This document shows, one piece after another, positions 23,752 to 37,410 of a stretch of 64,000 nucleotides of DNA. The notes under the pieces were generated by a model. That model ran no database searches and was not told the DNA's origin. It was given only the letters and a program-made list of their open reading frames with translations. The DNA lies in assembly GCF_030397575.1 (NCBI RefSeq), contig NZ_JAPNXS010000005.1, positions 124,001-188,000 on the forward strand, read 5' to 3'. Numbering within the stretch: the stretch's first letter is position 1; every line of letters starts with the position of its first letter. The DNA is from Psychromonas sp. 14N.309.X.WAT.B.A12 (GTDB taxonomy: Bacteria > Pseudomonadota > Gammaproteobacteria > Enterobacterales > Psychromonadaceae). The position numbers and the translations under genes are program-made.

Positions 23752-24870
23752 ATGACAGAGGCTTCTATTGTTCGATTTACGAACAGTTCCTCTATAGATG
23801 AATTAAACATAGCTATTAATATTGTTTGCCAAGAAAACATCCAAGGCCTGTTGTTATTGACCTGTGTCGATAACAATTACCTTGAACCACAGATCAATAA
23901 AATACTATCTGATTGTCAGTTACCGATCGGTGGAGGTATGTTTCCTAAGATTATATATCACGGAAAAAATTACTCACAGGGTGCGATTATTGTTGGTTTA
24001 AGAATTAAGCCAGAAATCATTAATTACCCTATGTATAACAGTGATGAACGTGATATTGACCAGTACATTCAAAGCAATAGCTTAGTTATTCAACATCATA
24101 AAAGCTTTCTTATCCTTTCCGATGCATTATGCAATGCCAGTGAAGATTTTGTTGACCACTTTTATAATTATATGGGCTCAGGCGTGACTGTCATTGGTGG
24201 AGGTGCAGGCTCTTTAGATTTTTTACCGCGGCCTGTCATTTATACAAATCAAGGAGTTAAAGGTTATATCACACAAGTTATTGCACTACCTTGCTCATTA
24301 ATAAATAGCATCGGTCATGGTTGGGAAATTGCTGATGGCCCATACTTAGTTACTTCCGCAGATGGGCATTATGTCCACTCGTTAAATTACCAATCAACTT
24401 TTTCATTATATAAAAAGGTGGTTCAGCAACAAGTTGCTGTGCCTCTATCAGACAACTTTTTTGTCGAATACGCAAAAAGTTTTCCGCTAGGGATGGCCTC
24501 TTTAGATGGAGAAATTTTAGTAAGGGATCCGATACAAACCAATGCTTCATATTTAGAATGTGTTGGTAATGTATTAGTTAATTCAATGGTTTATTTACTA
24601 AAAAGTGATAAACACAAAATGTTAGCTTCTACTCAAAAGGTAGCTAATGAAATTGCTCTAGATAAACAAGAAAACAAGACATTACTATTGTTTAACTGCA
24701 TCAGCAGGGATTCATTTCTTGGAACAGATATCAACGAGGAATTAAGTATCATACAAAACACCCTGCCAGAAACGCCATTAATTGGTGCCATGGCATTAGG
24801 TGAAATTGCAAATACGGATAACGGATCTATTCGATTACTTAACAAGACTACGGTACTTGGCGCATTTTAA
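23752..24870 (+). CDS. FIST domain sensory protein (FIST_N and FIST_C)
   Basis: A 372-residue cytosolic protein with FIST_N at about 30-215 and FIST_C at about 220-355. Marks include the GGGMFPKIIYHGKNYSQGAIIVGL segment, GGGAGSLDF and the C-terminal ETPLIGAMALGEIA. FIST proteins are thought to sense small ligands, possibly amino acids, and are often linked to c-di-GMP or chemotaxis proteins. Here a GGDEF/EAL gene starts 15 bp downstream, so the pair probably forms one signalling unit. Confidence 0.8.
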   Translation: MTEASIVRFTNSSSIDELNIAINIVCQENIQGLLLLTCVDNNYLEPQINKILSDCQLPIGGGMFPKIIYHGKNYSQGAIIVGLRIKPEIINYPMYNSDERDIDQYIQSNSLVIQHHKSFLILSDALCNASEDFVDHFYNYMGSGVTVIGGGAGSLDFLPRPVIYTNQGVKGYITQVIALPCSLINSIGHGWEIADGPYLVTSADGHYVHSLNYQSTFSLYKKVVQQQVAVPLSDNFFVEYAKSFPLGMASLDGEILVRDPIQTNASYLECVGNVLVNSMVYLLKSDKHKMLASTQKVANEIALDKQENKTLLLFNCISRDSFLGTDINEELSIIQNTLPETPLIGAMALGEIANTDNGSIRLLNKTTVLGAF

Positions 24871-24885
24871 GGATTTAACTGCTAA

Positions 24886-26703
24886 ATGAATACAGCGATG
24901 CACATTATGTCGATTCAGCACCAATTAGTATTAGCCATTGGTGAAGAAACTGATTTAAAGAAAATGTTATACACATTCTTACACCTTGCTGGGCAATGTT
25001 TGAATACCACTAATAACCATATTTTCATCATGCAAGATAAGCAAGGCACGCCTGTATACCAACTAAATAACGACGCTTCTATTCAACATTTTTTAAGTTT
25101 CCCCACTAGAAAAGAGGGAATCCACACAAATCAATCATCGCAGTTAATGAATTTAGTCACAGATTTTTCCGAAAAAAATATTGACTCAGAAGTTACCCAA
25201 TTCAACTCATCATTTTATTATTTGTTTAAATTAGGTGAATTTGGAGTCTTTATTATTGAGCGAAAAAATGCCCTTAGTAAAGAGATTCAAAGCGCCTTAC
25301 CGCAAGTTATTAATAAACTCACTAATAGTTGTATCGCCTCTATCAATTACCACACTATGGTATTTGAAATTAAAATGCGTAAAGAGGTGGAGGCGCAAAT
25401 TCGTTATCAAGCTACCCATGATGATTTAACTGGTTTATATAACAGAATGGAAGTACAACGTTGCTTAACTAAAGCTATCCAAGCAACCACAGTAGAAAAA
25501 AAGACAGGTTATGTGCTATCCATTAATTTAATGAATTTCAAAAGTATTAATGATGCAATTGGTTATCATGTTGGCGATAAAGTATTACGACAAGTAGCGG
25601 ATAGAATTAAAAACTCTACGGACAAAGAGACCACTATTGCGATCTTTAATGGTCATGAATTTATTTTAATTATTGACCATTTACCAGCAAACAAGATGAA
25701 AGCACAACTTATCATTGGCGATATTATCGCTGAAATCATTCATACCATTGAACACCCTTTTGAGCTGGCAGAAGGGAACTTCTCTTTATCTTGTTTTATT
25801 GGTTATGAACGATTTACCGATAACAGTAAAACAGCTCAAGATATTATTAAAAATGCCAGCATCGCGATGTATGAAGCATTTAAAAAGTCCAAAGATAAAG
25901 CCCTCGCTTATAAATTAATTATGTCAGAACAACTTAACCAACATATACGTTATACCAAGGAGATTAAACAAGCCTTAATCAATAATGACTTTGAATTACA
26001 TTACCAGCCACAATTCGATCATCTATATAACATGATAGGTGCAGAGGCATTGTTAAGATGGAATCATCCAACACGAGGTTATGAGTCGCCCGCAGTTTAC
26101 ATCCCTATTGCTGAAGAAAGTGATTTAATTATTGAAATAGGCAACTATGTATTAGAGCAAGCATGCCGAGATATAAAACGTTTAAGACAACGTGTTTTAC
26201 CTACTTATTTCGAACAAATCTCCATCAATGTGAGCGCTAAACAACTTGCTAAACGAGACTTTGTAAACAACGTAATCGCCATGGTTAACAAATATCAAAT
26301 CCCCGCTTCTTCGTTAAAAATAGAAATAACAGAAAGTATTATGATGGGGAATTTAGAGCGGTCTATTGATGGTTTAAATACCCTGTTAAAATTTGGCGTA
26401 ACCTGTGCGATTGATGATTTTGGAACCGGTTATTCTTCGCTAGCCTACCTAAAACGTCTACCTGCTAGTTTACTTAAAATAGATCGCTCTTTTGTCACAG
26501 ACATTCATTTAGATCAAAGTAATAAAGCTATCATTAGTATGATTATCCAACTTGCGAAAAGCGTTAATATGGAGGTTATTGCAGAGGGTGTCGAAACTGA
26601 AAAAGAAGTGAATTGTTTGATTGAATTAGGCTGTTATAAATTTCAAGGTTACTACTTTAGCCGCCCTATCACTTTTAACAAGTTACTCGAATACAGACAT
26701 TAA
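24886..26703 (+). CDS. c-di-GMP phosphodiesterase with degenerate GGDEF and intact EAL
   Basis: A 605-residue protein: N-terminal GAF-like region (about 1-165), GGDEF domain (about 180-340), EAL domain (about 355-603). The GGDEF active loop reads FNGHEF, so the cyclase is probably inactive, possibly a GTP-binding regulatory domain. The EAL half keeps AEALLRW, NVSAKQL, EITES, IDDFGTGYSSL, LKIDRSFV and AEGVET, so it should hydrolyse c-di-GMP. It is co-transcribed with the FIST protein, which likely controls its activity. Confidence 0.85.
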   Translation: MNTAMHIMSIQHQLVLAIGEETDLKKMLYTFLHLAGQCLNTTNNHIFIMQDKQGTPVYQLNNDASIQHFLSFPTRKEGIHTNQSSQLMNLVTDFSEKNIDSEVTQFNSSFYYLFKLGEFGVFIIERKNALSKEIQSALPQVINKLTNSCIASINYHTMVFEIKMRKEVEAQIRYQATHDDLTGLYNRMEVQRCLTKAIQATTVEKKTGYVLSINLMNFKSINDAIGYHVGDKVLRQVADRIKNSTDKETTIAIFNGHEFILIIDHLPANKMKAQLIIGDIIAEIIHTIEHPFELAEGNFSLSCFIGYERFTDNSKTAQDIIKNASIAMYEAFKKSKDKALAYKLIMSEQLNQHIRYTKEIKQALINNDFELHYQPQFDHLYNMIGAEALLRWNHPTRGYESPAVYIPIAEESDLIIEIGNYVLEQACRDIKRLRQRVLPTYFEQISINVSAKQLAKRDFVNNVIAMVNKYQIPASSLKIEITESIMMGNLERSIDGLNTLLKFGVTCAIDDFGTGYSSLAYLKRLPASLLKIDRSFVTDIHLDQSNKAIISMIIQLAKSVNMEVIAEGVETEKEVNCLIELGCYKFQGYYFSRPITFNKLLEYRH

Positions 26704-26706
26704 TAA

Positions 26707-26736
26707 AAAGCGATTAAGTTCCCCCCTAATCGCTTT
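26707..26736. terminator. Bidirectional terminator between two signalling operons
   Basis: AAAGCGATTA and TAATCGCTTT form a perfect 10-bp stem around a C-rich 10-nt loop, between converging genes. Confidence 0.7.
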
Positions 26737-26758
26737 ATGATTTCACAATAGTTGAACG

Positions 26759-29700
26759 TTAACGATCAGAAATTTCAAACCTTTGTACAATGTCTTTAAT
26801 CTCTTGACGCTCTAGCACATAATCAATACTACGTACCAATAAAGGCTTAGATAGTTCGTCTTTACTAATCACATCAATGACTTCATTTGAAAGGAAGGAT
26901 TTATCCATTACCGATTCTTTTTGACCTGATAATAAAATAATAGGTGTATCTATATTCTTGATCTTCATTGCTTTCACAAAATCTTCTGCAGTGTTTGGAC
27001 CTAACTGATAGTCCAATAAACATACATCTACATTCATACGCCCTGCTAACTCTATGGCTTCTTCTAGGGTTTTAGCTTCTACAATGGTATAAGAGCGCTC
27101 TTCAGACGCTTTGAAGTATCTTTGCACTCGTAAACGATCCACTGCATCATCATCCACCACCATCACTGTCACATGTTGATTAACTTCAATACGATGATGT
27201 AAGCGTTTCGAGCGATTAATTAACAGCGCTTTAAATTGCTCCTGTGCTTGCACCAACGCATTTTCCACAAACTTTAGCCTAGATATGTTAGTAATCGTAA
27301 TAAGCACACCATGTTGTGCTGTTGCGCTCATATCATCACTAACCGCATAAGGCGCCATTCGTATTAAAGCAGTTTGTCCCGCTTTAGTGAGTATATCCTG
27401 CTCTACCACTTCTCCTTTAGTACTAACATTACCAATTTGAGTTAAGAAGTCGCTGTAATCTAACTCATGAGAAATATGATGAATTGGACGACCTATATCC
27501 GACGTTCGTAAATTAATGTAGTTAGTTGAATGTGGCGTGTATTTACGAATAGTTAAATTTTCATCAAGGAAAATAATACCTAAATCCGTAGAATTGATGA
27601 CGTTATCTAAGTCCATATTCGCTTCTGTTAATTGCGATATTTTCTCTTGGTATTCACTGTTAACCGTATATAACTCTTCATTGACCGACTGTAGTTCTTC
27701 ATTGGTACTTTGCAGCTCTTCGTTAGAAGACATTAGCTCTTCATTACCAGATTGCAGCTCTTCGTTGGTTGTTTCCAACTCTTCGATAGTCACTTGTAGA
27801 TGCTCTTGTTTTTTAACCAGCTCTTGCTCCAAGTCATGAATGCGCTGTAAAGACTGCTCTCCACCATCAAAAGTGATTGATTTAGGTGACTTTCTAATAA
27901 CATCACCTTGTTCGTGCACGATAAATTGTAAAATATACGAACGAGGAGAACTTTGATGATCACTTTGCTTGACCATAAACACAGCCAGGTCAATGAAGCT
28001 TGGCACACCATTTAAAGTACAAGCAACATCGCTATAAAAGACATCTTCTTGATTCTTTTCACTGCGGTATAATGCGGTAGAGACCGCAATAGCAAGATCG
28101 TCACAAATCATATCTTTGATATTTAGACTAACTTTCCCTCGCCCTAAACCTTTGGTATAAGGAGTCATATCACCATAAACATGGACAGCATCAAAACGCT
28201 CATTTAATACAACACAATCCGGAGCATAGTGATCAATTAAACGCTCCATCACCATATTATATTTATTATTACTCACCATTCTTGAAGAGTGTATATTGGT
28301 AGAGGAGTTGGCCGATATCACTGATGTGGCTACATTATGTTTCAGTGATGCTGGTTCTTTTGCAGGTAAACGCGCCGCACTCACTTTTTGGAAAATACGC
28401 GTTCGCTCATCAACCGTATCAAAGTGAACAGCCATATCGCCTAACGATTCAGAATTGCCTAAAAATAAATACCCATATTGCTGTAGAGCAAAATAGAATG
28501 ATAAAAACACTTTCTGTTGTGCATTTTGCTGGAAATAAATTAACGTATTTCTACAGCTAAGCAGGTTAATATTTGAAAATGGAGGATCTTCAATCATATT
28601 CTGTTGGGCAAATATAACCATCTTACGTAGCTTAGCAGATACAACATAAGCATTGCCCGTAGGTTCAAAATAACGATTTAATCGACTCTTAGAGATATCT
28701 TGTACTATTTCAGCAGCGTAAACACCTGTGCTAGCTTCCGCTATCGCATCTTCATCCACATCCGTTGCAAAAATTTTAACTTGACGATCAATTTTATACT
28801 TCTCTTTTGCTTCATCAAACAAGATAGCAATAGAATAAGCCTCTTCACCTGACGAACAACCGGCTATCCATACACGAATAGGGTCTTTACCATTCCCCGA
28901 AGTTAATACCTTATGTACTGCCACTGATGTTAATTTATCAAAGGCTTCATCATCACGGAAAAAGTGCGTTACATTGATCAACAACTCTTTACTTAAAATA
29001 GACACTTCTCTTGGAGAGTCAGTCAATAATCGTAAATAAGCATCTAGTGTTTTTAACTGGTTAATCCCCAGGCGACGCTCGATACGGCGAGATACTGTAG
29101 AGGGTTTATATTGCGCAAAGTTAATTGAAGATTGCTTTTTTAATATATCGAAAATGTCTTCTAATACCTTACTGTCAGCATCAGAGGCAGTAAAAGAACT
29201 CACAGGCGCATCACCTTTAATCGATGGGTGGTTAATAAAATCTACTAGGCTTTTACCCATTTCGCTTGGTAACAATACCATATCGGCCAACCCCGTTTGA
29301 TAGGCATTGGTTGGCATTCCATCAAATTTTGCAGAGTCAGTTTTTTGTACAACGACTAGTCCACCGGCTTCTTTCATAGCGCGAATACCACGAGTTCCAT
29401 CAGTACCTGTACCGGATAAGATAATTCCAATCCCTTTATGTTGCTGATCTTCAGCTAAAGATCGTAAAAATACATCAATAGATAAACACGGTAACCGGTC
29501 TGGCATCTGATCTGATAATAGAAGTTTACCTTCAGTTATCAACATATTCTTACGAGGTGGCATCAGATAAATAGCATTGGCTTCGATATCAATACTATCG
29601 GAAACTTCGTAAATAGGCATATCCGTGTATTTTTTTAACAATTCAGACATCATACTTTTATAGTCAGGCGAAAGGTGCTGTACAACAATATACGTGGCAC

Positions 29701-29824
29701 CTGTATCAGATGGGAGATGACCAAAGAACTCCTGTAGCGCTTCTAAACCACCAGCTGAAGTACCGATACCCACGACATGTGAAGGTGTTTTATGTTGTGT
29801 ATTTTTAGATCTAATCACATGCAT
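26759..29824 (-). CDS. CheB-CheR fusion protein with PAS and response receiver domains
   Basis: A 1021-residue multidomain protein. CheB methylesterase spans about 15-200 with the Ser/His/Asp triad visible in GIGTSAGG, VQHLSP and SGTGTDGTRG. CheR methyltransferase spans about 215-485 (SRRIERR, NVTHFFRD, WIAGCSSGEEAYS). A heptad-rich coiled coil of repeated NEELQS units lies at about 660-735, a PAS domain at about 740-860, and a REC domain at about 895-1010 with acidic DDD and phospho-acceptor Asp in CLLDYQLG. Such proteins modify receptors or partner kinases. It ends a four-gene signalling operon. Confidence 0.85.
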   Translation of the reverse strand: MHVIRSKNTQHKTPSHVVGIGTSAGGLEALQEFFGHLPSDTGATYIVVQHLSPDYKSMMSELLKKYTDMPIYEVSDSIDIEANAIYLMPPRKNMLITEGKLLLSDQMPDRLPCLSIDVFLRSLAEDQQHKGIGIILSGTGTDGTRGIRAMKEAGGLVVVQKTDSAKFDGMPTNAYQTGLADMVLLPSEMGKSLVDFINHPSIKGDAPVSSFTASDADSKVLEDIFDILKKQSSINFAQYKPSTVSRRIERRLGINQLKTLDAYLRLLTDSPREVSILSKELLINVTHFFRDDEAFDKLTSVAVHKVLTSGNGKDPIRVWIAGCSSGEEAYSIAILFDEAKEKYKIDRQVKIFATDVDEDAIAEASTGVYAAEIVQDISKSRLNRYFEPTGNAYVVSAKLRKMVIFAQQNMIEDPPFSNINLLSCRNTLIYFQQNAQQKVFLSFYFALQQYGYLFLGNSESLGDMAVHFDTVDERTRIFQKVSAARLPAKEPASLKHNVATSVISANSSTNIHSSRMVSNNKYNMVMERLIDHYAPDCVVLNERFDAVHVYGDMTPYTKGLGRGKVSLNIKDMICDDLAIAVSTALYRSEKNQEDVFYSDVACTLNGVPSFIDLAVFMVKQSDHQSSPRSYILQFIVHEQGDVIRKSPKSITFDGGEQSLQRIHDLEQELVKKQEHLQVTIEELETTNEELQSGNEELMSSNEELQSTNEELQSVNEELYTVNSEYQEKISQLTEANMDLDNVINSTDLGIIFLDENLTIRKYTPHSTNYINLRTSDIGRPIHHISHELDYSDFLTQIGNVSTKGEVVEQDILTKAGQTALIRMAPYAVSDDMSATAQHGVLITITNISRLKFVENALVQAQEQFKALLINRSKRLHHRIEVNQHVTVMVVDDDAVDRLRVQRYFKASEERSYTIVEAKTLEEAIELAGRMNVDVCLLDYQLGPNTAEDFVKAMKIKNIDTPIILLSGQKESVMDKSFLSNEVIDVISKDELSKPLLVRSIDYVLERQEIKDIVQRFEISDR

Positions 29825-29887
29825 CTCGCTATCTATAATAGTATAGTTATATAACTTATTGTTAAAATTAAGAGTTAATATTAATTT

Positions 29888-32473
29888 TTAATGTTTCGAT
29901 ACTTTGTATTGTTTTAATAATTCACAAGCATTACTTTGTGCTAAAGGTTTATGAAAATAGTAGCCTTGATGACACAAGCAACCTTGCGCAATTAACCAAT
30001 CTTTGGTTTCAATATCCTCGACGCCTTCTGCGACTAAACCTAATTCAAGCATTTTACCTAGGCCTATAATCGCTAAAACTATTTTTTCAGCTTCATTGTC
30101 TCGAAGAATATCCATTACAAAGCTTTTATCTATTTTGATGTAATTTAATGGCATTTGACGTAATAAACCCAAAGACGAGTAACCCGTCCCAAAATCATCA
30201 AGGGCAATTAAAAACCCAGCTTCTTTTAGCTTTCTTAAATTCTCTCCAGCAATCGTAGGGTCTTGTATAAAAGCAGTTTCTGTTACTTCCAATGTAAACC
30301 AGCTTGGATCTATTTTTTCTTTTTTAAACAATGCAATAACTGAGTCAGAAAATTCAACAAGGTGGAGTTGTTTAACAGATAAATTCAGGCTTATTTTTTG
30401 TGGGTGAACCAATAAATCTTGTTCTATCCACGATTTAACTTGCACAATAACCTGGTAAAATAACCATTCAGAGAAAGCTTGAATTAGCCCATTCTCTTCC
30501 ATTGCCAAAATAAAAATATCAGGACTGATTACCCCTAACTCGGCATTTGACCAACGAGCTAACACTTCAAAGCCCATAATATTTTTTGTCTGGGCTTGCA
30601 TTAAAGGTTGTAATACAAAAGAAAATCCAGATTGTGTTAAGTTATTCAAGTCTGTAGTCAAATAATTTAATAACGATAAATCCTTCTCAAAACCAGCTTC
30701 ATAAAAACAAAATTGGTTTCGCCCTGCATCTTTTGCTTCATATAATGCTAAATCAGCCTTTCTTAGAATATCGCTGGGTTGCACATTATGCTCTGTCGCA
30801 ATGGCCACCCCAACACTGCAAGAGAGAACCATAGACTTACCTTCGATCTTGAAAGGTAAGTTGACTGCACTCACTATTTTATTAGCAATAGGAGCAATAA
30901 CACTTTCTGTCATCAGGTCAGTGAAAATAATAGCAAATTCATCTCCCCCTAAACGTGCAATGGAATCCTCATCTCGAACCACCGACTTTAAACGTTTAGC
31001 TACCTCTTGAATGACTAAATCACCTACATGGTGCCCCAATGTATCGTTAATATTTTTAAATCGATCTAAGTCTAAAAACATTAACGCACTAATACCGTGA
31101 CGTGGGACTCGAGCCAGAGCAAATGTTAATCTATCTGTAAAAAAGGCGCGATTAGATAGCCCAGTTAAGTGATCATAATTAGCCATTTTCTGTAGTTTTT
31201 TTGAGTGCGTTCGCTCTGCCGATATATCCATCATAGTAAAAATGAAACCAGTCACCTCAAAGCGATCATTAAACAACCCAACAACATTAATAGACACCCA
31301 TAAATTACGTTCTACTAGCGATACCAATTCAATTTCGCCTTTATAATTATTAGAGTGAGAAATCGATCGTATAATCTCTAATTGGAGTTCGTTAGCGTTA
31401 AGGTTATTAATAGATGAAAGCCAGCCTTGTTCTAATGATTGCTCCTCATTCTGTCCAGTATATTTAGCCCAAGTTTGATTGGAGTATGAACAATTAAAGT
31501 TTTTATCTGTTTGCAAAATAGCCATGGGAACAACACTAGTTAAGGCATTGAACCTTTGCACACTGGCATTATAAATTTCTTGATTAATGCTCACTTCCGT
31601 TTTTTCATTGATCATTAATCCAAAACAGTGACTATTTAAATAATTTACATCAAAGAGATGAATATCAACATGAATGGACTGATGTTCATTTAAAACCAAT
31701 TTTACATTTGACCACTGTTGTTTTTCTAAGTGGCCTAAGAAAAAGAATTTAGTGATAACAGTTAATAAACGAAAAGCAATACTTGGTAATGTTCTATTAA
31801 CTAACTTTTCAATAGACGGCCAACCGCGTTCTAGATTTGAGTTAAAAAGGCTTTGAGCTGCAAGGTTGGATTTTAATACTTTAAACTCATCATTAAAAAT
31901 AAACGCTGGGTGAAAGGTATTTGTTAATAAAGATTCTAAGATAAGCTTGCTTTGGTTATCAGATGAAGTATTGAGTTTATTTTCAACAAGCCCAGATGGA
32001 GATAGCGTTAAGCGTTTTTTTTGATTTTTTAAAAGTGTAATAGTCGCTAATAGAAATGGATTTACATCAATTAATTTTTGGGAATGAAAAGACAACGCTA
32101 TATTCACTAACACGATAATAGCGTAAATATTTTCACTTTCACCGATTGGGATATAACGTAAATTATCAATGTACTTATTACTCAATAACCCATCATCAAC
32201 TTGATCTATTGCCTTATCGTAGAAATAAGGAGTGACCATACAGTCTTTATCCATAAAGTAATCAGTTAAGTCTTTGGTTAGCTGGTTTTTAATGGGCTCA
32301 AACAGCATATCAGGTGCAATCACAACCCGAGATTCTAGATTAACATTATGTGTATTCAATTCATCATCAACTAAAAAACCTAGGGCATAATCTGATTGAT
32401 TAATCCTAGCTAATTTTTCTACACAATGTTCCAAAATGTCATTATTGGATTTTGTAATTTGCTGTAATTTCAA
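29888..32473 (-). CDS. PAS-GGDEF-EAL c-di-GMP turnover protein
   Basis: An 861-residue cytosolic protein. N-terminal GAF/PAS-like regions (about 1-290) precede a PAS domain (about 300-420, ending in FTMMDIS), a GGDEF domain with intact ARLGGDEFAII (about 425-595), and an EAL domain (about 600-855) in which EAL is EVL but the other catalytic residues remain (NLSVKQL, EVTET, LDDFGTGYSSL, IKIDKSFV, AEGVED). Both activities are possible. It lies between the receiver protein and the CheB-CheR gene on one transcript. Confidence 0.85.
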   Translation of the reverse strand: MKLQQITKSNNDILEHCVEKLARINQSDYALGFLVDDELNTHNVNLESRVVIAPDMLFEPIKNQLTKDLTDYFMDKDCMVTPYFYDKAIDQVDDGLLSNKYIDNLRYIPIGESENIYAIIVLVNIALSFHSQKLIDVNPFLLATITLLKNQKKRLTLSPSGLVENKLNTSSDNQSKLILESLLTNTFHPAFIFNDEFKVLKSNLAAQSLFNSNLERGWPSIEKLVNRTLPSIAFRLLTVITKFFFLGHLEKQQWSNVKLVLNEHQSIHVDIHLFDVNYLNSHCFGLMINEKTEVSINQEIYNASVQRFNALTSVVPMAILQTDKNFNCSYSNQTWAKYTGQNEEQSLEQGWLSSINNLNANELQLEIIRSISHSNNYKGEIELVSLVERNLWVSINVVGLFNDRFEVTGFIFTMMDISAERTHSKKLQKMANYDHLTGLSNRAFFTDRLTFALARVPRHGISALMFLDLDRFKNINDTLGHHVGDLVIQEVAKRLKSVVRDEDSIARLGGDEFAIIFTDLMTESVIAPIANKIVSAVNLPFKIEGKSMVLSCSVGVAIATEHNVQPSDILRKADLALYEAKDAGRNQFCFYEAGFEKDLSLLNYLTTDLNNLTQSGFSFVLQPLMQAQTKNIMGFEVLARWSNAELGVISPDIFILAMEENGLIQAFSEWLFYQVIVQVKSWIEQDLLVHPQKISLNLSVKQLHLVEFSDSVIALFKKEKIDPSWFTLEVTETAFIQDPTIAGENLRKLKEAGFLIALDDFGTGYSSLGLLRQMPLNYIKIDKSFVMDILRDNEAEKIVLAIIGLGKMLELGLVAEGVEDIETKDWLIAQGCLCHQGYYFHKPLAQSNACELLKQYKVSKH

Positions 32474-32552
32474 AAAAACCTCTTCCTAGTTGAGTATTTT
32501 TTTATTATTCGAGATAAAACGCTGTCATTTATAAAAACAATGTTCCCCATCA

Positions 32553-32972
32553 TTATTTGGGCAACATCACTACTCGCCAATAACAATCTAATAATTTAAT
32601 GACTTTATCAAAACCAGCCTTCACATCAGATTTAACAATATAACCTGCTATATTCTCATTGTAAGCAGCTACCACATCTTGATCCGCAGAAGATGTGGTC
32701 AAGACAAAAATAATAGAGTCTTTTAACCTATCATCTTGACGGATATGTTTTAAAAACTCTACCCCCCCCATAATCGGCATATTTAAATCTAATAGTATAA
32801 TGTAGGGGCGAACTAAAGCAGCTGGCTCTCTTAAAATTGCTAATGCATCCACTCCATTTTTTGCTCGAGTAATAGGGTTAGCTAATTTTAATTTTTTAAA
32901 GCCTCTCTCTACCGCTTTAGCATCAATGTCATCATCTTCTACCAACAAAATGCTTACTTCACTATATTCCAT
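32553..32972 (-). CDS. Single-domain response regulator (Rcp1/CheY-like)
   Basis: A 139-residue receiver domain with no output domain. Acidic pocket VEDDDID, phospho-acceptor Asp in LLDLNMP, Thr/Ser switch in VLTTSS and Lys in YIVKSDV are all present. Its sequence resembles Rcp1-type regulators that pair with phytochrome-like kinases. It starts 29 bp after the kinase gene upstream and should receive phosphate from it, then act on the downstream c-di-GMP or CheB-CheR proteins. Confidence 0.85.
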   Translation of the reverse strand: MEYSEVSILLVEDDDIDAKAVERGFKKLKLANPITRAKNGVDALAILREPAALVRPYIILLDLNMPIMGGVEFLKHIRQDDRLKDSIIFVLTTSSADQDVVAAYNENIAGYIVKSDVKAGFDKVIKLLDCYWRVVMLPK

Positions 32973-33001
32973 ACATGCTCACTTTATATTTAAATCAAAA
33001 A

Positions 33002-34903
33002 TTATTTATCTGAAACGTTTTTAGGCCAAGTGAAATAAAAAGTGCAGCCTTCACCCTCACTAGACTCAATTTCTACCCGTCCGTTGTAATGCTCAACTAT
33101 TTTTTTAATTAACGCTAACCCCATGCCACTTCCTTCCGTTTCATCTCGTGGTTTGAGTGTTTTGAACATTTTAAAAATTTCTTCTTGGTATTTAACAGAG
33201 ATACCAGGCCCATCATCTGTAACACTAAACTGGTAAAAATCACCTTCATCCGCACAATTAACACTAATCGAGCCCAACTCTTTATGATGATGCTTAATCG
33301 CATTATTCAATAGGTTACGTATTACTTGCTCAAAAGGAGCTCTAAACGTAGAGAAGATAGGTAACTCCCCCTCAATATTTAAAGAAAAACTATTCAAAGG
33401 TGAAACTAATACAAATAGGTCATTTACTAATACATTACTATCAATTTCAGAGATACTATCTGACCGATGATTAACTTGAGAATACTCTAGTAAGTCATTT
33501 AACAGACTTTCTAAGCGCCCGATCCGATTTCTCATCATTTTAAGGTGATCTGGGATCTCTTCTAAGTTCCCCTCTTCAATGTCCTCGATTACCCAAGTGG
33601 CTAACTGGTCGATGCCTCGTAATGGAGCTTTTAGATCATGTGATGCCACATAAGCAAATTCATCTAACTCTTTATTTGATCTAGCTAACTCTTCTGCATA
33701 TGTTTGCGCATTAAGCTTTGCTTGTTCAGCCTCTTTCATTAATCGAGAAAGTAAAACTCGTTGTTTTTCCAAAATATCTACATTTTCTTTAAGTTGCGAA
33801 TTTTTATCCGCTAAAGACTGAGTACGTTGTGTTACTTTTTTCTCTAAACTACTATTTTGACTTTTTAGTTCTTCACTCAGGAGAGTAATACTTCTCGCTC
33901 GCTCAATGGAAACAAGCAATGCGTAGATAGCAATACCAAGTAATAGACTAATCGTAATACCTCCAGCTAAAACCCACTTAATAACAGGAGGAGACTCAAG
34001 ACTTTCTATCAATTGTTGATTTAATGAAACATGCAACTGCCATTGACGTTCAGGTACCTTTAAATCATAGCTAAAAAAGTGAGAAGTTGTATCCATTCCA
34101 TATAACAAGTCCACATGGTTAACATCAACATCTAGCAAAGTGAGCTCAAGCCCTTTTATATCTGCATATTTTTTAGCGCTTTCCATCAAAACATCGATTT
34201 TAAAAACACCCGTCACATACCCGCGCAATGCACTTATGCGTTGTTCGATAGTGTCGGTTGCTAAACCTTTGTTATAAACAGGTGCAATAATTAATGCCCC
34301 AATCAAACTTCCCGCTTCTCGTACTAAATTGATTTTACCGGTAGTCGACATCATGCCACTATTTCTAGCAAACTCTAATGAATTACGACGAACCTCATTA
34401 CTGCTTAAATCGTAACCCAATGCTTTTTTGTTTGATTGAATTGAACTGAAATAAGTTACTGGGGTATATTCATCTTTATCAGGACTGACAATTAACTGAC
34501 CATTCTCGTCTCGTTGCACAATATTAAAGCCAGGATATTCAGCTCTTAATCGCGCTAGATATTCACTTTTTTGTTCTGATTTAATTAAAGGAACCCAACT
34601 TAGAGCTTGAATGTAATTACGACTTTTTATATCTAAAATTTCCATGTAACGATTAAATTCAAGTTGTGATATTCCACCTTTACCCACACTATAAAATGCT
34701 TGTAAACCACGCAAATCATTAAGGGATTTATCGATAGAGTCTTGAAGGTAGTTTGAAACTTGCTTTGCAGTGTTCTCTATTTTTAAAGCGCTTTCTGACT
34801 TTAATTGACTAGCTACTTTCAAAGAAACTGAATAAGTACTTAAGATACCGAATACACTTATAACGACAGAAACCGCAAGTGACTTAATAGATATTTTTTT
34901 CAA
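33002..34903 (-). CDS. CHASE-domain sensor histidine kinase
   Basis: A 633-residue membrane kinase: transmembrane helix (about 5-25), periplasmic CHASE domain (about 65-270, YIQALSWVPLI), second helix (about 315-335), coiled coil, HisKA with phospho-acceptor His in FAYVASHDLKAPLRG, and HATPase (NNAIKHH, DDGPGIS, GSGMGLALIKKIV). I prefer a TTG start at 34903, which has AAAGGA 7 bp upstream and gives MKKISIKSLAV, a normal membrane-anchor start. ATG 34933 or TTG 34945 would add 10-14 residues without a ribosome site. It leads the four-gene operon. Confidence 0.85.
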   Translation of the reverse strand: MKKISIKSLAVSVVISVFGILSTYSVSLKVASQLKSESALKIENTAKQVSNYLQDSIDKSLNDLRGLQAFYSVGKGGISQLEFNRYMEILDIKSRNYIQALSWVPLIKSEQKSEYLARLRAEYPGFNIVQRDENGQLIVSPDKDEYTPVTYFSSIQSNKKALGYDLSSNEVRRNSLEFARNSGMMSTTGKINLVREAGSLIGALIIAPVYNKGLATDTIEQRISALRGYVTGVFKIDVLMESAKKYADIKGLELTLLDVDVNHVDLLYGMDTTSHFFSYDLKVPERQWQLHVSLNQQLIESLESPPVIKWVLAGGITISLLLGIAIYALLVSIERARSITLLSEELKSQNSSLEKKVTQRTQSLADKNSQLKENVDILEKQRVLLSRLMKEAEQAKLNAQTYAEELARSNKELDEFAYVASHDLKAPLRGIDQLATWVIEDIEEGNLEEIPDHLKMMRNRIGRLESLLNDLLEYSQVNHRSDSISEIDSNVLVNDLFVLVSPLNSFSLNIEGELPIFSTFRAPFEQVIRNLLNNAIKHHHKELGSISVNCADEGDFYQFSVTDDGPGISVKYQEEIFKMFKTLKPRDETEGSGMGLALIKKIVEHYNGRVEIESSEGEGCTFYFTWPKNVSDK

Positions 34904-35379: not shown

Positions 35380-36534
35380 ATGAAGGCATTAATAATAGGC
35401 GCAGGTATTGGCGGTATTTCAGCAGCAGTATCACTCAAGCAGCAAGGCATTGAATGCGAAGTATTTGAAGCAGTAAAAGAGATAAAACCAGTCGGAGCAG
35501 CCATTTCGGTTTGGTGCAACGGAGTGAAATGTATGAATCACCTCGGCATGGGGCATATTATGGATAAACTAGGTGGTCCGATGCTCAATATGGCCTATCA
35601 AGATGGTAAAACCGCAGCAATAATGACACAGTTTAGTCTAGTTCCGTTAATTGAAGAAGTTGGGGAGCGACCATGTCCTGTGTCACGTGCAGATTTACAA
35701 TCAATGATGATTGATCATTGGGGTAAAGAGAAAATTCAATTTGATAAACGTATTGAACGTGTAGAGCAAGATGAGCAAGGTGTGACGGCTTATTTCACCG
35801 ATGGTAGTCGCGCACAAGGTGACTTTATGATTGCAGCTGATGGTGCTAACTCTGTAGCGCGATCATTTGTCCTCGGTCATTCTGTCGAAAAACGTTATGC
35901 AGGTTATGTAAACTGGAACGGTTTAATTGATGTTGATACATCAATAGCACCAGCAGATCAGTGGACAACCTTCGTTGCCGACGGGAAACGCATCTCCCTA
36001 ATGCCTATTTCGGATAACCGTTTCTATTTCTTTTTTGATGTACCACTACCATTAGGTTTAGCCGAAGATCGAAGTACCGTAAAAGACGATCTTAGCGGAT
36101 ACTTCTCAGACTGGGCTGAGCCAGTACAAAAACTTATTCAAGCCATTGACCCATCTACGACTAATCGCATTGAGATTCACGATGCTGAACCATTCACTAC
36201 CTATGTTGATCGACGTATTGCTCTATTAGGGGACTCTGCTCACCCTACGACACCAGATATTGGTCAAGGAGGTTGTTCTGCAATGGAGGATGCAGTTGTA
36301 CTCGGTCAAGCTTTTACAGAAACAAAAGATATCCACACTGCGCTGTTAGATTATCAATCTAAACGTAATCAACGTGCGAAAGATCTAGTACTCAAAGCCC
36401 GTAAACGCTGCGATGTAACACATGGTGTTGATATGGAAGTGACTCAAGCGTGGTACCAAGATCTTAAAAAAGAGACTGGTGAAAATATAATGGCAGGTTT
36501 AAAAGAGACGATCATCAGTGGCCCTTTGGGCTAA
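35380..36534 (+). CDS. hpxO: FAD-dependent urate hydroxylase
   Basis: This 384-residue flavoprotein monooxygenase converts urate to 5-hydroxyisourate with NADH and O2, the first dedicated step in urate breakdown. It has the FAD Rossmann motif GAGIGGISAAVSLKQQGI at the N-terminus, the DG-type motif around FMIAADGANSVAR, and GDSAHPTTPDIGQGGCSAMEDA near residue 285. Its length equals Klebsiella HpxO as I recall it. An AGGGA site precedes the ATG. A sigma-54 promoter and RutR-like box lie upstream, fitting control by nitrogen status. Confidence 0.88.
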   Translation: MKALIIGAGIGGISAAVSLKQQGIECEVFEAVKEIKPVGAAISVWCNGVKCMNHLGMGHIMDKLGGPMLNMAYQDGKTAAIMTQFSLVPLIEEVGERPCPVSRADLQSMMIDHWGKEKIQFDKRIERVEQDEQGVTAYFTDGSRAQGDFMIAADGANSVARSFVLGHSVEKRYAGYVNWNGLIDVDTSIAPADQWTTFVADGKRISLMPISDNRFYFFFDVPLPLGLAEDRSTVKDDLSGYFSDWAEPVQKLIQAIDPSTTNRIEIHDAEPFTTYVDRRIALLGDSAHPTTPDIGQGGCSAMEDAVVLGQAFTETKDIHTALLDYQSKRNQRAKDLVLKARKRCDVTHGVDMEVTQAWYQDLKKETGENIMAGLKETIISGPLG

Positions 36535-36637: not shown

Positions 36638-36780
36638 CCACCCTTAACTAATGCAAACTAATAAAGCCTTTATCGGCGATTAATTTCAGTTAGATATAGT
36701 GACTATAAGCAACTATAAAACCCGTGTATTATCGTCTTATCATTTATATTTATAAAATCGATTCACCTATAGGGAAAACA

Positions 36781-37410
36781 ATGAGGAAAAGCAATAAAGG
36801 CAGAATAAGAGCCGAAAAGACACAAATAATATTACAAGCAGCTGAAACTGAATTTGTTAAACATGGTTACAAAGGTACGAGCATTCAGGCAATTTCAGAC
36901 GCAGCAGGATTGCCTAAAGCTAATCTATTATATTATTTCCCTAGCAAAGAAAAATTGTACGACGCACTACTAAAAAACATTATATCTATTTGGAACCAAG
37001 CCTTTACCGAGATTACCGAAGAAGATGATCCAGCCAAAACACTTGAGCAGTATATACACAGCAAAGTGGAACAAGCGATTCATTACCCTAATGCATCAAA
37101 AATATTTGCAGCTGAAATCATCCAAGGAGCTCCCAACCTAAACGAGTACCTACGTACAGAAACTCGCACTTGGTTAAAAGACAGCTGCAAAATAATAGAC
37201 AGCTGGATTGCACAGGGAAAGATGAAAAAAGTAGATCCTGAAAAGCTAATCTTTTTAATTTGGTCCAGCACACAACATTATGCCACTTACCAAGCTGAGT
37301 TATTGCTCATTACAGACAAACCAGAATATCTACAAAAAGATATTACCCAAATTAGTACATTTTTATGCGAGATGGTGCTATCGGGTTGTGGCCTAACAGC
37401 GAGTAAATAA
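36781..37410 (+). CDS. TetR-family regulator, RutR-like
   Basis: A 209-residue repressor with an N-terminal HTH (about 10-60, GTSIQAISDAAGLPKANLLYYFPSKEKLY) and a RutR/YcdC-type ligand domain with IFAAEIIQGAP and WSSTQHYATYQAE. RutR in E. coli senses uracil and controls pyrimidine and purine nitrogen genes. I start it at ATG 36781, which has AGGGA 6 bp upstream; the longer ORF from 36724 lacks one. The hpxO upstream box matches the RutR site, so hpxO is a probable target. Confidence 0.8.
   Translation: MRKSNKGRIRAEKTQIILQAAETEFVKHGYKGTSIQAISDAAGLPKANLLYYFPSKEKLYDALLKNIISIWNQAFTEITEEDDPAKTLEQYIHSKVEQAIHYPNASKIFAAEIIQGAPNLNEYLRTETRTWLKDSCKIIDSWIAQGKMKKVDPEKLIFLIWSSTQHYATYQAELLLITDKPEYLQKDITQISTFLCEMVLSGCGLTASK

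Follow-up and report, generated by a model that had tools for sequence, protein, structure and literature searches.

Do two convergent operons that both carry enzymes of cyclic di-GMP (c-di-GMP) metabolism form a single signaling unit, and what would a fusion of the chemotaxis enzymes CheB and CheR be doing in one of them? These questions are raised by a locus of the marine bacterium Psychromonas sp. 14N.309.X.WAT.B.A12, located in a stretch of 64,000 nucleotides (contig NZ_JAPNXS010000005.1, positions 124,001 to 188,000; hereafter the window) in which open reading frames (ORFs), and the Pfam domains of their proteins, were called. The plus strand encodes a FIST protein followed by an EAL protein with a degenerate GGDEF motif (NGHEF); on the minus strand, transcription runs from the gene for a CHASE kinase through those for a single-domain receiver and a PAS-GGDEF-EAL protein to that for a CheB-CheR-PAS-REC hybrid (CheBR; Table 1). 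The original prediction, made from the DNA letters, had described six genes in two converging operons, and all six ORFs and their domain assignments were recovered by translation and Pfam. The parts of the locus are known; their arrangement is new. As an explanation of the whole, we cautiously favor two c-di-GMP modules of separate origin lying tail to tail and working by the steps proposed below.

Distribution of the two operons

FIST was present in 8 of the 24 Psychromonas genomes and the full-length CHASE kinase in 7; an eighth genome matched the kinase over its core only. An orthologue of CheBR (86–91%) was found in 5 of the 24, that of the window included. In all seven genomes with the full-length kinase, both units shared one contig, with FIST-EAL within about 10 kb. 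This is what would be expected if the two operons functioned as one, with c-di-GMP signals of opposite sign coming from FIST and the CHASE kinase, and the GGDEF site of the EAL protein, degenerate ([ND]GHEF) in the seven linked genomes and intact in the unlinked genome G019, can be counted in favor of the same notion. However, conservation in the same seven genomes extends to the flanks, with their NhaP-type exchanger and OmpA-type genes, so that one inherited segment explains the linkage, which is the synteny of one clade and not proof of joint function.

A FIST profile matched 26 of the 394 genomes of the order, the 8 of Psychromonas and 18 others, and 15 of the latter 18 neighborhoods were examined (all except those of G280, G325, and G370). 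None of the 15 contained the CHASE kinase operon within the stretch fetched. FIST-EAL without the kinase operon was found in G019 and nine other genomes; in G019, a Psychromonas, it lies on a 5.8-kb contig without the kinase and is followed by a gene for a GTPase which we take to be RsgA-like. The set also varies within the clade: in G003 and G018, CheBR and PAS-GGDEF-EAL are missing, and the kinase and receiver directly face FIST-EAL. One conserved six-gene unit was therefore rejected, and the linkage implied by the original prediction stands for the seven Psychromonas genomes, with the proviso of their conserved flanks, and breaks down outside that one clade. The accompanying proposal that the operons exert opposing control of c-di-GMP is unsupported because the second enzyme retains both its GGDEF and its EAL residues and may act in either direction. 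We consider a single functional unit unlikely; judged by their distribution in sequenced genomes, the two operons are two separate modules whose pairing is for the most part peculiar to one lineage.

FIST, its output proteins, and its ligand

FIST lay directly upstream of an orthologous GGDEF-EAL gene in all eight Psychromonas carriers and in 9 of the 15 non-genus neighborhoods. In the other six, it preceded the gene for a protein composed of an N-terminal domain, PAS, and HD-GYP (four cases) or for a hybrid kinase (two cases). Nine positions of the EAL domain, which we take to be catalytic or metal-binding, were unchanged in 17 of 17 EAL partners. The GGDEF site of these 17 proteins reads [ND]GHEF in the seven linked genomes, GGDEF in G019 and five others, RDDEF in one, REDEF in one, and SGNAF in two. 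In the window, the GG(D/E)EF motif of diguanylate cyclases is absent from the first enzyme and intact in PAS-GGDEF-EAL, just as had been predicted. With its EAL residues intact and its GGDEF signature lost, the first enzyme is best read as a predicted phosphodiesterase.

The first ∼165 residues of the EAL protein match no Pfam family. AlphaFold2 modeled this domain with a predicted local distance difference test score of 83.9, and Foldseek matched the model with a best E value of 1e-4 and a template modeling score of about 0.6; GAF domains are among the top matches, as are MglB and others. A profile of the domain from the 17 EAL proteins also found the N terminus of the FIST-linked hybrid kinase at locus L175 (E 1.4e-10), which had not contributed to the profile. 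We read the domain as an exchangeable one that would let FIST reach different outputs. The same profile is weak on the HD-GYP partners and the kinase at L097 (E 0.05 to 1), which weighs against this reading; the N termini of these partners are related to each other. Class-wide, FIST loci were viewed in 40 hand-chosen regions of a longer list (one of them a placeholder); a FIST ORF was found in part of them, which gives no rate. In this set, the partners at L163, L165, L152, L154, and L157, both kinases and GGDEF-EAL proteins, share another N-terminal signature, approximately L-x-R-Q-L ... L-x-x-S-[LM]-x-[IV]-S-S-x-E-M, as if a FIST contact domain were swapped between outputs.

The ligand of FIST is, as a best guess by analogy, heme or nitric oxide (NO). 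PMC8846402 and PMC12570481 report NO or heme responses for those FIST-linked c-di-GMP enzymes and kinases that have been studied to date. In the NosP systems outlined there (Legionella NosP-NahK-NarR and Burkholderia NosP-NosK-NosR), a FIST gene lies beside a signaling partner that changes c-di-GMP. The FIST protein of the window likewise has both the FIST_N and FIST_C domains, and its gene adjoins that of a c-di-GMP enzyme; in contrast to the NosP systems, it directly precedes the GGDEF-EAL gene, with no kinase in between. Vibrio cholerae CdpA, as described in the review (PMC8846402), ties FIST-FIST_C to a phosphodiesterase within one protein, and heme is reported there to inhibit its EAL domain; here, the two are separate ORFs.

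Whether FIST instead binds another small ligand, and is no NO or heme sensor at all, has to be weighed against this analogy. FIST had no match in NCBIfam at E 0.001, in a library that may or may not include a NosP model, so that NO or heme sensing is argued by analogy, which counts against the guess. Likewise, a sequence search of the PDB matched no solved FIST structure, and several of the class-wide FIST proteins do not adjoin signaling genes. A search of genome contigs with FIST gave six loci, all from Psychromonas. Against a different ligand speak the reported NO or heme responses of the known FIST-linked enzymes and kinases and the absence of H-NOX from this genome (2 of the 24 Psychromonas genomes have it), a gap that another NO sensor might fill. 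A different ligand is thus plausible, if not probable.

CheBR and its linker

In CheBR, the residues S23, H50, and D142 are those which we take to be the catalytic triad of CheB. The Ser and His are present in all 32 CheBR proteins of the order and the Asp in 31, and all three in 77 of 77 proteins outside the order. The CheR part matches CheR structures in the PDB and has conserved active-site residues; those checked are kept in 66 to 77 of the 77 proteins outside the order, with departures of Ser for Thr, Tyr for Phe, and Asp for Glu. With the CheB triad and the CheR residues intact, both enzymes should have a substrate. A scan of ten proteins encoded from 20.5 to 37.4 kb of the window found no CheA, CheW, or chemoreceptor, and no NCBIfam model reached its cut-off on CheBR. 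The receiver that had been ascribed to this protein is confirmed by intact residues; its phospho-Asp and Lys are kept in nine of nine REC-bearing orthologues.

Between CheR and PAS, the CheBR of the window contains a linker with five tandem heptads. Across the 32 CheBR proteins of the order, the Glu pairs are kept in 319 of 320 cells, Asn at position a in 148 of 160, and Leu at position d in 145 of 160; the heptads are as conserved as the catalytic residues. In an alignment of 17 sequences with 29–60% identity to the CheBR of the window, 15 of the 68 invariant columns fall within the 30 heptad residues. Four proteins from other families share 40–42 of 44 residues of the linker peptide with the window, yet their codons differ by 20–24 synonymous changes, which points to selection on the protein and not to recent growth of a DNA repeat.

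The pattern extends beyond the order. To avoid circularity, the phylum was searched with CheB-CheR alone, the linker excluded; hybrids were found in 65 of the 299 genomes sampled, at 80 places outside the order. In 71 of 76 CheBR ORFs, four or more [EQ][EQ] pairs follow one another seven residues apart (the maximum in 200 shuffles of each was four), and together with L294, L299, L334, and L337, which were read from stop to stop, a run of at least four heptads is present at 75 of the 80 places. The remaining five are L259, L262, L335, and L336, all short ORFs, and L281, with a run of two. Outside the order, the fourth residue after the first Glu is Ala, Ser, or Thr in 464 of 487 heptads, as expected of heptads similar to those of methyl-accepting chemotaxis proteins (MCPs), and the next residue is also small in 283. 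Runs of at least three Glu pairs occur in 73 of 78 CheR ORFs, compared with 1 of 399 other ORFs nearby, the single exception being the latter half of a CheBR gene that is split. A plasmid search with the linker matched 239 records. At seven of the eight places examined among the 60 matches listed, CheB-CheR is in the same frame as the linker (Shewanella CheB-CheR-GGDEF-EAL and proteins of Deinococcus and Salinibacter among them); at the eighth, L254, the linker belongs to an ORF directly behind a CheR gene. The Shewanella plasmid is conjugative, and its protein (L251, 4081–8631) has 1,516 residues and eight Glu-pair heptads.

The methylation consensus of MCPs consists of helical heptads with Glu pairs at positions b and c followed by small residues (PMC1079850, PMC6829392), and the heptad pattern of the linker resembles such sites: taking Asn and Leu as positions a and d puts the Glu pairs at b and c. 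An alternative register, with Leu at a, may apply. CheBR departs from MCPs in that it holds writer and eraser in the same chain and has five consecutive pairs. From this pattern, it is possible, rather than to be expected, that the linker helix is methylated in cis by its own protein. On an equally tentative footing, CheB-CheR hybrids may be self-contained adaptation devices with methyltransferase, methylesterase, and methyl-accepting helix in one chain; perhaps the helix, with mostly five to eight Glu-pair heptads, then sets the output of a PAS-linked receiver, kinase, or c-di-GMP enzyme.

Several observations weigh against self-methylation. None of the five heptads of the window satisfies all ten positions of the strict MCP site tested ([ASTG][ASTG]xx[EQ][EQ]xx[ASTG][ASTG]): the downstream half is present in three of five and position −3 in five of five, but position −4 is Glu, Gln, or Met and never small. 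AlphaFold2 predicts one helix from residue 654 to 746, as any coiled-coil linker would show, and its confidence is low (47–69 in ten-residue blocks between residues 641 and 720); the model cannot place the helix against CheR. On the minus strand of L252, on a Salinibacter plasmid, an unrelated kinase without CheR also has five Glu pairs spaced by heptads, in a plain charged coiled coil, so that spacing by itself should be read with care. All this would suit a linker that is only a stiff signaling coiled coil between CheR and PAS, with Glu pairs supplying charge and register, and with CheR and CheB acting on other proteins, for example the ordinary chemoreceptors of the cell. What such a coiled coil does not readily account for is that, among the 32 CheBR proteins of the order, conservation is higher at the surface Glu pairs (b and c) than at positions a and d of the core, that position f is so consistently Ala, Ser, or Thr, and that Glu-pair runs are nearly confined to CheR ORFs. 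Whether the linker is a mere coiled coil is, in our judgment, evenly poised. In the AlphaFold2 model, the interval between CheR and the linker contains an additional mixed α/β, PAS-like stretch (residues 515–637, about 27914–28282) that Pfam does not name.

The partners of CheBR are more consistent in this order than elsewhere. Beyond the genus, REC-bearing orthologues were found in G275 (61%), G374 (46%), G320 (44%), and G267 (37%). A PAS-GGDEF-EAL gene adjoins CheBR in all four, on the same strand in two and divergently in two, and in three of them the next gene downstream encodes a kinase; in the fourth, a kinase gene lies no more than about 5 kb away. In G320 (family f7, locus L215), PAS-GGDEF-EAL, CheBR, a CHASE kinase, and an Rcp1-like receiver form one same-strand run; the four-gene set thus recurs in another family. 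Six of the 32 CheBR proteins of the order are fused to GGDEF or GGDEF-EAL (L031, L200, and L203–L206), 22 are encoded adjacent to such a gene, and four are neither (L198, L202, L207, and L209); the background is 1 in 212 unrelated ORFs. Outside the order, 20 of 76 CheBR loci have a kinase fused and 19 adjacent, three have a c-di-GMP enzyme fused and four adjacent, and 30 have neither. There, kinases (39 of 76) prevail over c-di-GMP enzymes (7 of 76), so the link between CheBR and c-di-GMP is characteristic of this order, which counts against the c-di-GMP reading of CheBR; a general tie, which holds in the order and fails in the phylum sample, was rejected. In the open-licence literature, which leaves most subscription journals outside its scope, no functional study of CheB-CheR hybrids or their linker was found. 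PMC2890560 reports a hybrid of Rhodospirillum centenum without a function; it likewise has CheB and CheR in one polypeptide, whereas CheBR of the window ends in PAS-REC and is partnered with a PAS-GGDEF-EAL gene.

Gene layout and proposed signaling scheme

Within the PDB set, the core of the CHASE kinase is nearest to the histidine kinase 8f71 and to bacteriophytochromes, and the single receiver matches Rcp1 in sequence and has a conserved phospho-acceptor site (D62, T92, and K114, invariant in seven genomes). The pair therefore resembles the Cph1/bacteriophytochrome kinases with their Rcp1-type receivers, except that a CHASE periplasmic sensor replaces the phytochrome module. The receiver gene adjoins that of the kinase in seven of seven genomes, and CheBR is present in five of the seven; it is the single receiver, then, that always accompanies the kinase. 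As the original prediction suggested, this receiver may compete with that of CheBR for phosphate. PAS-GGDEF-EAL keeps its GGDEF motif, RxxD site, and EAL residues and may make or break c-di-GMP. Its orthologue in G023 (L034, 7796–8062 and 8011–10365) occupies two frames that meet near codons 73–89 and looks frameshifted or misassembled.

The FIST and EAL ORFs are separated by 15 bp, and the minus-strand genes by 63 bp (CheBR/PAS-GGDEF-EAL), 79 bp (PAS-GGDEF-EAL/receiver), and 29 bp (receiver/kinase). The kinase ORF reaches 42 bases past the limit set earlier (34903); its TTG start is uncertain. The 3′ ends of the operons converge at 26703/26759, and the hairpin between them is terminator-like, which is only suggestive, since the scan found 3 sites in total compared with 5.8 expected in shuffles. 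The promoter scan was uninformative (33 sites found, 50 expected in shuffles). The kinase is separated from the OmpA-type gene by a gene for an HpxO urate hydroxylase (35380–36534; NCBIfam 602 bits, cut-off 500) and one for a TetR-family regulator (36724–37410); tblastn found both in the window and in G014 and neither in the stretches from the remaining five linked genomes.

Table 1. Features of the locus, with positions in the window.
Feature	Position	Strand	Basis
FIST sensor protein (FIST_N + FIST_C), 372 aa	23752..24870	+	Pfam PF08495 (4.8e-16), PF10442 (1.9e-20)
Degenerate GGDEF (NGHEF)-EAL protein, predicted c-di-GMP phosphodiesterase, 605 aa	24886..26703	+	Pfam; EAL positions
GAF-like N-terminal domain of the EAL protein, proposed FIST docking/input	24886..25392	+	AlphaFold2, Foldseek
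NGHEF, degenerate GGDEF motif, residues 255–259	25648..25662	+	Translation
Inverted repeat, possible two-way terminator	26707..26736	.	Hairpin scan; between convergent operons
CheB-CheR-PAS-REC hybrid (CheBR), 1021 aa	26759..29824	-	Pfam CheB, CheR_N, CheR, PAS_10, Response_reg
Tandem heptads N-E-E-L-x-[ST]-x, CheBR residues 687–722, proposed methyl-accepting helix	27659..27766	-	Alignments
PAS-GGDEF-EAL protein, 861 aa	29888..32473	-	Intact GGDEF, RxxD I-site RDED, EAL residues (EVL)
Single-domain receiver, Rcp1 type, 139 aa	32553..32972	-	Pfam; PDB matches Rcp1 1i3c/1jlk
CHASE-HisKA-HATPase sensor kinase, bacteriophytochrome-type core, 647 aa	33002..34945	-	Pfam; PDB matches; H436 invariant in 7

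From gene content, intact catalytic residues, recurrent pairings, and the extreme conservation of the Glu-pair heptads, all of which are evident in the sequence, we infer a ligand, a contact between FIST and its partner domain, phosphotransfer routes, and self-methylation. In the first module, cytoplasmic FIST would sense a small ligand and contact the GAF-like N-terminal domain, thereby acting on the EAL phosphodiesterase. In the second, the CHASE kinase would sense an extracellular signal and phosphorylate its Rcp1-type receiver and, where CheBR is present, the receiver domain of CheBR too. CheBR would work with the PAS-GGDEF-EAL enzyme and may turn its methylesterase and methyltransferase on its own signaling helix, which would serve for adaptation or memory.

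Within the locus, it is the CheB-CheR helix that most deserves a specialist's attention, and the prediction of self-methylation names specific residues. If it is true, a c-di-GMP pathway here would gain a chemotaxis-like memory without chemoreceptors. If the helix is the substrate of its own protein, reversible glutamate methylation would be a general device of input adaptation outside chemotaxis, in sensor kinases and c-di-GMP enzymes.

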